Made by a program: the position numbers and the translations under genes. From Candidatus Pacearchaeota archaeon (GTDB lineage Archaea; Nanobdellota; Nanobdellia; Pacearchaeales; GW2011-AR1), in the NCBI GenBank assembly GCA_018303945.1, contig JAGVXD010000006.1:1-37057 (forward strand): a stretch of DNA of 37,057 bases. Direction: 5' to 3'. Positions 28,017 through 37,057 of the stretch are shown in pieces. Each line of letters begins with the position of its first letter. Within the stretch, counting starts at the first letter, position 1. A model generated the notes under the pieces. That model did no database searches, was not told the origin of the DNA, and saw nothing but the letters and a program-made list of their open reading frames with translations.

Positions 28017-28040
28017 GAAAAAGTCTTGTCGACGATAGAG

Positions 28041-28130
28041 GGTGTTTAAGCTGTTTAAACAGCTGTTTGTTTTTGATTTTATGGTGTTTAACTATTTATT
28101 TTTAGTGTTTAGGGGTGTTTGAAGAGTGTA
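28041..28130. promoter_or_regulatory. Operator-like cluster: GTGTTT/CTGTTT repeats and overlapping palindromes upstream of the coiled-coil/wHTH gene
   Basis: GTGTTT at 28042, 28084, 28105, 28115; palindromes AGCTGTTTAAACAGCT (28049-28064) and AAACAGCTGTTT (28057-28068). Confidence 0.65.
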
Positions 28131-28206
28131 AAATGCTTATAGTCACACTTGGCTTATTAAGCCTTATAAACGCAATATTTAAATAGTCTGGCGTTGGTAT
28201 AGTTGT

Positions 28207-28851
28207 ATGTTTGAGTGGCTTTTTGGTGGAAAGGTGAGAAAGCTTGAAGACCAGACTAAAATTGGTTTCTCTGCTGTAAAAAAAGATATGGAGGTGGTTG
28301 GAAAATGGATTAAACACCTTGATGGACAAGATAAACAGCTGTTTGATTCTCTGCAGGAAATAAAACAAGAATTATCGACGATCAGAGATGAAGTGGAAAG
28401 TTTGAGAGAGGGTGTTGGAATTATCTCAAACACCTCGAAAGACAAACAGCTGTTTGAAAAAACAGGTGTTTATGGCAAACAAACAGCTGTTGAAGTTGTT
28501 GAAAAAGGTGTTCAAACAGGTGTTCAAACAGGCAGTTTTTATGAAATTTTCAAAAATTTATCTTTGAATGAAAGAGCATTATTATTTACTTTAATGAATA
28601 GCGAAATGAAGCTAAGTTATGAAGATTTGGCTCTGCTTTTAGGAAAAGAGAGATCTACGGTAAGAGGACAAATTAATGCTATAAAACAGAAAAGTGAGGG
28701 GCTAATTGAAGAAATTACCGAGAAAAATGGTAAAAAAAGAGTATATGTGCCCTTGGAAATTAAGGAAAAGCTAGCAAAATATGCGAAAGTGAGAGTTGTA
28801 AAAAGAAAGAAAGGTTCGGTTAACACGAAGATAGGAGAAAATAATGAATAG
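28207..28851 (+). CDS. Coiled-coil + winged-helix DNA-binding protein with repeat-rich linker
   Basis: N-terminal coiled coil (KQLFDSLQEIKQELSTIRDEVESLREG), linker with GVQTGVQTG, C-terminal wHTH (SLNERALLFTLMNSEMKLSYEDLALLLGKERSTVRGQINAIKQK); TATA ATTTAAATA near 28179. Confidence 0.75.
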   Translation: MFEWLFGGKVRKLEDQTKIGFSAVKKDMEVVGKWIKHLDGQDKQLFDSLQEIKQELSTIRDEVESLREGVGIISNTSKDKQLFEKTGVYGKQTAVEVVEKGVQTGVQTGSFYEIFKNLSLNERALLFTLMNSEMKLSYEDLALLLGKERSTVRGQINAIKQKSEGLIEEITEKNGKKRVYVPLEIKEKLAKYAKVRVVKRKKGSVNTKIGENNE

Positions 28852-29101
28852 TCGCTTACAAATATACTTAAAGAAAATGAAAAGTGAGAGTCCAGAGATT
28901 AGATTTTTCATGAGAAGTGGAGTAAAAAATAGAGAAAGTGAGTGGAAAGAACATTTTTGGAGACAGGTAATAAAAATGGAGCAGAAAGTGAGAGCCAGAT
29001 ACAGCTTAGAAAGTGTATTTTTAAATGAAAATTCAACAAAAAATGAGGGAATATTGGGTAGAAAATCAATGTTTCTGAAAAACTGGGAAAATAGTGAGTG
29101 A
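28844..29101 (+). CDS. Small basic hypothetical protein
   Basis: 85-aa ORF overlapping the upstream wHTH gene by 8 nt; no domain recognised. Confidence 0.45.
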   Translation: MNSRLQIYLKKMKSESPEIRFFMRSGVKNRESEWKEHFWRQVIKMEQKVRARYSLESVFLNENSTKNEGILGRKSMFLKNWENSE

Positions 29102-29183
29102 TTTAAACGAACTTTAATGAGAAGAGAAATAATGAAAAGTTTAGCTGTAGATATGTGAATTACTTATTCGGTGAGCGGTATAA

Positions 29184-29873
29184 CTAAATCTCGCGCAAAG
29201 CTATCAGAGTTTGAAGTGAGGCCATTTTCTTAAGTTCTAGGGGGATAGAAAGAATAACTTTTTTATTGTTCTCCTTAATTTTTGTTAATGGAACTCCTTT
29301 TCGCATGATTTTAAGTGCGTAATCGCGAATTGAACTTTCAGAAAGCTTAAGTTTGGTGGAAATAAGAGAGTAATCAACGATAAGCCCTTCTTCTTCAAGC
29401 TGATAAATGGTCGCAAAAACAAGCATTTCTTGAGAAGTTAGCTTCTTAAATTGCCGACGAAGATCTTTCTTTAAGTCGTCGAGAGAATTAAGGACTTCTG
29501 AAACTTGCTTTAAAGATGGTGGTGATGTAATTGAGGCTTGAAAGGGGGATTTTGTGTTTGAGATTATGTGTCTGTCTGTCTGTTGGTTTGTCTGTCTGTC
29601 TGTTGGAACCCCCCTATTTCCTGTGGAGATATCTGAAATTGGGCTTTTTACGGCTTCTAGAGGCATATTATAAAGTTCGTTTAAATTATCTGTTGGAATT
29701 GAGTGCCTGTTTGTTTGTTGGAGAGAATCTTGTGTTGGAATATGTGTTGGAATATGTGTTGGATTTAAAATTTGTTTTAATTCTATTAGTTCGGAAGATA
29801 TTGCCTCTAACTCCTCCTTTAAATCTGATATGTCTTGCTTTACTTTGGAAAAGGCCTCTTTTACAGGATCCAT
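29184..29873 (-). CDS. Coiled-coil + winged-helix DNA-binding protein (paralogous architecture to 28207-28851)
   Basis: MDPVKEAFSKVKQDISDLKEELEAISSELIELKQIL coiled coil; linker PTHIPTHIPTQ...VPTDRQTNQQTDRH; C-terminal wHTH KLTSQEMLVFATIYQLEEEGLIVDYSLISTKLKLSESSIRDYALKIMRKG. Start at 29873 chosen from TATA-like TTATAA near 29897. Confidence 0.75.
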   Translation of the reverse strand: MDPVKEAFSKVKQDISDLKEELEAISSELIELKQILNPTHIPTHIPTQDSLQQTNRHSIPTDNLNELYNMPLEAVKSPISDISTGNRGVPTDRQTNQQTDRHIISNTKSPFQASITSPPSLKQVSEVLNSLDDLKKDLRRQFKKLTSQEMLVFATIYQLEEEGLIVDYSLISTKLKLSESSIRDYALKIMRKGVPLTKIKENNKKVILSIPLELKKMASLQTLIALREI

Positions 29874-29907: not shown

Positions 29908-30192
29908 TTATGTTTGGGTGTTCTTTTGTAGTTTAGCGTATGCAGAATATGCTTCATCGGTAAGACGCCAACGGCGTCTTCGTAAGTAGTTTATGCCTTG
30001 TGGATTTTTTACCACTTCAGTTATTAACTTGTTGGACTTTATCTCCTCAAGAAGTGAACGTGTGAACTCTTCATCGCGCGCTATTTCCTTTGCTATTTCA
30101 AATGTAAATTTAAGTTCTGGAGAAACTGAATAAAGATAATGTAAAATCTGTTCAGTTATCTTGTCTTTTTTAGATTGTGAAAGGCGAGGCAT
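29908..30192 (-). CDS. Small winged-helix protein
   Basis: KKDKITEQILHYLYSVSPELKFTFEIAKEIARDEEFTRSLLEEIKSNKLI...RRRRWRLTDEA. Confidence 0.6.
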   Translation of the reverse strand: MPRLSQSKKDKITEQILHYLYSVSPELKFTFEIAKEIARDEEFTRSLLEEIKSNKLITEVVKNPQGINYLRRRRWRLTDEAYSAYAKLQKNTQT

Positions 30193-36462: not shown

Positions 36463-37057
36463 TTAATTTGCAGACAATCTAATCAACCCCAACCATCTAT
36501 TTTCTCCTAGATTTAACTCTTGTCCTGCCCTATTGCATGGAACTTCATCTAAAGTTGTATGTGCTTCTATAAAGTTATGTTGAATGATCAATGCATTCAT
36601 AAGTATGGGAGCAGACCATAATGCTTTCAATCCTCTAAAGTCATCTACTCTGTCTTTAATCTTCATAAAAACAGTTTCTATCCTATAATTATGTATTTTT
36701 GTAACACTTGCATTTTGTATCTTATGCTCAACTGTTAAACCGCCAATCTTGTTAGAATAGAAAAGTTTTCTAAATGCTTTAGGGTAGAAAACTCCGCCAT
36801 CAGTCTGAATAAACTTAGGTTTTCCTTTTTGAATTGACTTAAATAAGAATTTTTGTGCTTCTATTGGATTACCAGATAAACTATAATGAACTCCTGTAAT
36901 TAATCTGGTATCCCAATCAAGACAACACCAAAACCTATCATCTCTCCCACCGCAATCAGTGAAGCTCCCCACCCCAAGAGGTTTGCCTGCGGGCAAATCC
37001 TCACTTCGTTCGGAGTGAGGCATCTGACGACGACTAAACAAAATCGAACAGCTTAAG
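36463..37057 (-). mobile_element. DDE transposase/integrase, C-terminal part (continues beyond window)
   Basis: WCCLDWDTRLITGVHYS...FIQTDGGVFYPKAFRKLF...HNYRIETVFMKIKDRVDDFRGL resembles the DDE catalytic core of IS6-like transposases; frame open to the window edge. Confidence 0.75.
36979..37020. repeat. Tandem hairpins embedded in the 5' part of the transposase reading frame
   Basis: TTTGCC-TGCG-GGCAAA and CCTCACT-TCGTTCGG-AGTGAGG; read in frame as MPHSERSEDLPAGKPLG. Confidence 0.65.

Follow-up and report, generated by a model that had tools for sequence, protein, structure and literature searches.

Two paralogous winged-helix genes with embedded DNA sites and a coding ORB in the probable replication-origin region of Pacearchaeota

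Why are the linkers of two neighbouring winged-helix proteins spelled by short repeated DNA words, and what might be the function of the locus that carries them? The question is raised by a 37,057-nucleotide stretch of a Candidatus Pacearchaeota genome (contig JAGVXD010000006.1; hereafter the window), in which gene A (28207-28851, + strand; 214 aa) and gene B (29184-29873, - strand; 229 aa counted from a conserved Met, the mechanically called ORF extending beyond it to 29957) are convergent. A preliminary description made from the window alone had placed the two genes correctly, and had credited their products with a common layout of coiled coil, linker and winged helix-turn-helix (wHTH) domain. 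In the AlphaFold model of the gene A product, a helix (residues 3-79) is followed by a disordered segment (79-109) and a confidently predicted C-terminal wHTH (111-194); the linker encoded by the DNA sites corresponds to residues ~79-110. The model of the gene B product comprises a helix (3-36), a long disordered linker (~37-120), a second helix (121-143) and a wHTH (147-228). The proposed layout therefore holds, except that the N-terminal coil of B is short (~34 residues). Profile-profile comparison aligned A and B over 162 columns (probability 96%, E 3e-9), indicating that the two proteins are paralogues and that their common layout stems from homology. No named family was recognised, and the preliminary description likewise gave none: searches of Pfam, NCBIfam, PHROGs and the PDB gave nothing specific, fold comparison pointed to a generic MarR/ArsR-type wHTH only, and the PDB profile and fold searches returned generic coils and wHTH domains only. 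In one relative (G206, L248:3350-4066, - strand), an endonuclease-like N-terminal region, recognised by eye, is fused to a B-type wHTH in a gene that adjoins gene B.

Gene A is present in 72 and gene B in 69 of 92 relatives, normally as single copies side by side, and a gene B profile matched 217 of the 378 genomes of the class; since the homologues are kin, these counts and those given below do not represent independent events. Named records among the relatives of gene A are overwhelmingly metagenome-assembled genomes of Pacearchaeota or Nanoarchaeota. The arrangement is convergent, with B after A, in all 68 named loci, and either tandem or convergent in more distant families. Directly upstream of gene B and co-directional with it lies gene C (29908-30192, - strand; 94 aa), a wHTH protein by eye that family searches assigned to no family and that is a conserved partner in 63 of the 68 named loci, where the gene order runs A, B, C, an unnamed gene, a PRC-barrel gene, orc1, PolD DP1 and PolD DP2. 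A mobile or viral origin of A and B was rejected, as the genes are single-copy, keep their gene order and have no viral relatives.

Both genes contain the repeated words that the preliminary description had noticed. In gene A, the word AAACAGCTGTTT occurs at 28333-28344 (read in the frame KQLF) and at 28444-28455, AAACAGGTGTTT at 28460-28471, and two copies of TGTTCAAACA, spaced by 12 bp, at 28509-28530 (GVQTGVQT). A further cluster (GGTGTTTAAGCTGTTTAAACAGCTGTTTG, GGTGTTTAA and GTGTTTAGGGGTGTTTG; 28041-28122, + strand), which had been overlooked, lies upstream of the gene and includes AAACAGCTGTTT at 28057-28068. These words exceed chance: the 68 homologues carry a mean of 4.4 per gene versus 0.67 in synonymous shuffles, and half-sites G[GC]TGTTT number 5.8 per 300 bp upstream of gene A versus 0.10 in random windows. 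They are also specific to the locus: the 803.7-kb genome has only four occurrences of AAACASSTGTTT, each of them within 28057-28471, in the promoter of gene A or the gene itself. A genome-wide nucleoid function was therefore rejected. The same word is, moreover, read in more than one way by the protein: in homologues of gene A, AAACAG[GC]TGTT occurs 31 times in one frame (mostly KQVF or KQLF) and 62 times in another (mostly QTAV or QTGV). A different word, ATCGACGA, lies in the coiled-coil codons of gene A (28374-28381; LST) and again upstream of it (28029-28036), and the matching Leu-Ser-Ser/Thr codons of homologues are conserved as TTA TCG (TCG/ACG). This ATCGWCGA word is frequent genome-wide in G002, and is perhaps a wider regulatory motif.

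Other elements were observed upstream of gene A. A near-palindromic sequence, GTGCACTTAGGTTAGCTTAGT (up to 5 substitutions allowed), is found 150-860 bp away in 37 of 67 loci, all within L157-L236 (e.g., L225, L216, L231 and L213), whereas G200 and G002 each have a single match close to the locus and the window has no convincing one; it might serve in recombination or be bound by a protein. Of the 68 loci, 27 have a serine recombinase gene ~2.6 kb before A (e.g., L183:6275-7123, - strand), and gene A is preceded in L014, L011, L030 and L059 by a second ORB-like sequence with TTCGACA after it.

The linker of gene B contains an element that the preliminary description had missed, a match to the archaeal origin recognition box (ORB). 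The sequence TCCACAGGAAATAGGGGGGT (29608-29627, - strand), which encodes STGNRGV, is a 46.8-bit match to the position weight matrix (PWM), differs at three positions from the published common ORB motif, TCCA[CG]T[TG]GAAA[TC][GA]AAGGGGT (PMC4164010), and is the one place in the 804-kb genome where the family pattern is matched exactly; the archaeal consensus has also been given as CTTCCAGTGGAAACGAAAGGGGT (PMC4153887). STGNxGV is the best-conserved peptide of the gene B linker, with TTCCAYWGGAAAYNNRGGGGTT as its coding DNA. Within the 68 named loci, 67 carry in gene B an ORB with at most four mismatches out of 20 (none in 9 loci, one in 22, two in 20, three in 14 and four in 2), and 46% show at most one mismatch versus 1.9% of synonymous shuffles. 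The element extends to other families of the class, where it was found in 19 of the 20 loci examined (L256, from a same-family genome, being left out), with one exact match. In the 640-kb genome G069, the sole PWM match above 13 bits falls in gene B. There is usually one ORB per gene and no cluster, although three B genes carry an additional one in another frame, giving VPQE. The codons underlying the ORB are fixed at their synonymous sites (Ser TCC in 39/39, Gly GGA in 38/38, Val GTT in 37/37 and Thr ACA in 36/36), whereas the wHTH codons of these genes conform to codon usage.

Directly 3' of the ORB, gene B carries a tract with a 4-bp period (TCCAACAGACAGACAGACAAACCAACAGACAGACAGACACA; 29560-29607, - strand). 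Additional words, CCAACAAACAAACAG and three copies of CCAACACA spaced by 12 bp, are present at 29704-29763 (- strand), and the linker repeats include TGTCTGTCTGTCTGTTGG twice and TGTGTTGG three times. At lag 4, the tract showed an identity of 0.78 among 39 relatives and of 0.65 among 19 distant loci, versus 0.26 in a control window of the wHTH; the corresponding values for synonymous shuffles were 0.57 and 0.47. The period is usually 4 bp, L147, L149 and L151 showing longer repeats of roughly 12 bp and L252 no clear 4-bp period. The repeated unit differs by lineage: the tract is (CARA)n in Pacearchaeota, with CA in fixed phase to the ORB, and CAAT, GCGA, CACG, CACT or others elsewhere. It adjoins the ORBs of gene B only, and is absent both at orc1-proximal ORBs and in four genomes in which B was not detected; the tract is thus not a general companion of ORBs. 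The fixation of synonymous sites, the use of one word in two reading frames and the 4-bp periodicity of coding DNA indicate that selection acts on the linker DNA, and the first two rule out conservation of the protein as the cause. On these grounds, it appears to be the DNA sites that dictate stretches of the A and B proteins, and not vice versa.

If the words are binding sites of the encoded proteins, each lineage should carry its own linker word in the promoter as well, a check that the preliminary description had put forward. The expectation held for gene B across 19 distant loci, where a tract word scored 7.7 upstream of its own gene versus 1.1 in the upstream regions of other genomes (permutation p=5e-5; the zero of L254 is uninformative, its start codon being probably misplaced), as would be predicted if B co-evolves with its sites. 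In Pacearchaeota, the CAGA tract word was not evident just upstream of gene B. Words found both in a gene and in its own upstream region, together with MarR/ArsR-type folds, would also suit plain auto-repressors with intragenic operators, kept near orc1 by conserved gene order. We consider this highly improbable, because simple autoregulation would leave unexplained the ORB present in nearly all gene B homologues and its fixed synonymous codons.

Most relatives have a single strong Orc1/Cdc6 gene, which shares a contig with A/B in 58 of 84 genomes, at a distance of 2-33 kb in all 58. Counted by gene A, orc1 is on the same contig in 40 of the 63 genomes that have both, at 3.0-16.6 kb in 40/40; in the distant-family set (20 distant-family genomes plus G200), it is on the gene B contig in 18 of 21, at 2-33 kb. 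In the window's own assembly, a different contig carries orc1, close to its edge (C5:850), and has an ORB-like match at C5:469; the window itself bears at its right end an ORF resembling a DDE transposase (36463-37041), which may relate to the absence of orc1 from this contig. GC skew was weak in the four genomes considered, with its maximum at the locus in G200, ~12 kb off in G069, and nothing clear in G068 and G002. In genome G049 (93% complete), orc1 is present but neither A nor B was detected, and the pair may therefore be dispensable; G026, which is without A and B, is also without a strong orc1 match, as if the region were missing from the assembly. Judged by the coding ORB of gene B and the close linkage to orc1/cdc6, the locus probably belongs to the chromosomal origin region.

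Many genomes also possess an inverted ORB pair upstream of orc1 that resembles a classic oriC, and the ORB of gene B may for this reason be secondary. Replication could start at that pair, with the gene B ORB and tract, 1.5-15 kb away, acting as a distal site of Orc1 titration or negative control, similar to bacterial datA. The gene B ORB is usually nearer the consensus than the pair, which would suit a titrating site, and there is an archaeal precedent in oriC2 of Haloarcula hispanica, where a downstream ORB cluster has been proposed to exert negative control (PMC4010727). However, the ORB of gene B is usually single, and titration would account neither for the lineage-specific tract nor for its recurrence upstream of B; we regard this possibility as doubtful.

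An origin-proximal array of sites, confined to the locus and lying inside the gene of its presumed binder, could alternatively be a centromere. Bacterial parS sites are located near oriC, and proteins made of a coiled coil and a wHTH might serve in chromosome segregation, with the linker DNA as a parS-like element. This is improbable, as the HTH_ParB domain of Pfam scored 15.3 bits with gene A, far under its cut-off of 22.6, and did not match gene B, no ParA/SegA-like gene was identified by family search among the conserved neighbours scanned, and the gene B ORB would again be left unexplained.

Taken together, the locus is probably part of the chromosomal replication-origin region, and A and B would be co-initiators or regulators linked to the origin, with their sites lying within their own genes in the manner of phage lambda O and pSK41 Rep. 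This reading builds on the observed ORB match, DNA-level selection, locus specificity of the sites, linkage to orc1 and co-variation of tract and upstream word; from these we infer which protein would bind which site, and a role in initiation. Orc1/Cdc6 would bind the ORB of gene B, whereas B would bind the tract and A the A-words, both through their wHTH domains and as coiled-coil dimers. The matching upstream words would let A and B each control their own synthesis, and the disordered linker would exist largely because the embedded DNA must be kept. The earlier idea of a locus carrying both a putative binder and its own target array is thus indirectly supported, the linker DNA being under selection and its words fitting the idea; what that idea lacked was the origin setting. 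A bolder proposal, which we hold to be unlikely, is that the chromosomal origin itself lies inside gene B, where the ORB and the 4-bp tract would form an initiation unit, comparable to the bacterial DnaA box with its DnaA-trio, read by Orc1/Cdc6 and a co-evolving, self-encoded co-initiator; the linker of a protein would then be dictated by origin DNA throughout the class.

In the literature searched, we found no account of the replication origins of Pacearchaeota or Woesearchaeota, for which the locus supplies a specific candidate origin element that lends itself to testing, along with two unnamed proteins encoded next to orc1. The DNA-level constraint is long-lasting, shaping a coding linker across an archaeal class, and the lineage-specific tracts with their matching upstream words provide a natural series for the study of protein-DNA co-evolution.

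The nearest working analogues are a phage and a plasmid replicon, in which sites lie inside the gene of their own binding protein. In phage lambda, ori maps within the O gene, so that the origin iterons lie in the gene of their initiator (PMC5043065). The lambda system differs from A and B in several respects: it is phage-borne and has no ORB, its iterons are 19-bp inverted repeats, and there is no common sequence family, the phage replication O family domain giving no match to A or B in Pfam or PHROGs. In pSK41, the Rep boxes occupy the centre of rep and encode a linker of the Rep protein, a member of the RepA_N group, and deletion of this linker is tolerated provided that a functional ori is supplied (PMC5703833). 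Rep is likewise a wHTH protein with central, linker-encoding sites; however, it is plasmid-borne and its wHTH is N-terminal, whereas A and B are chromosomal, carry a C-terminal wHTH and an associated ORB, and have no Pfam match to RepA_N. Within the archaea, WhiP and UBP of Sulfolobus are also non-Orc1 proteins tied to origins, WhiP being a winged-helix initiator encoded beside oriC3 and UBP binding an origin motif. Sites in their own genes have not been described, the WhiP origin is without ORBs, and neither protein was recognised as a relative in the sequence and fold searches, of which those by PDB profile and fold yielded generic coils and wHTH domains only.

A comparable setting is the archaeal oriC with its Orc1/Cdc6 and ORBs: the ORB of gene B fits the common motif, and the orc1 and PolD genes are near. 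Known ORBs have been sought and described in intergenic DNA, whereas that of gene B is coding and highly conserved. Ori-Finder 2 scans intergenic DNA only (PMC4164010) and would therefore miss it. Finally, although the DnaA-trio of bacterial origins is a trinucleotide, and the tract of gene B has a 4-bp (sometimes ~12-bp) period and is absent at other ORBs, the two arrangements may be analogous, each consisting of an initiator box followed directly by a tract of short-period repeats.
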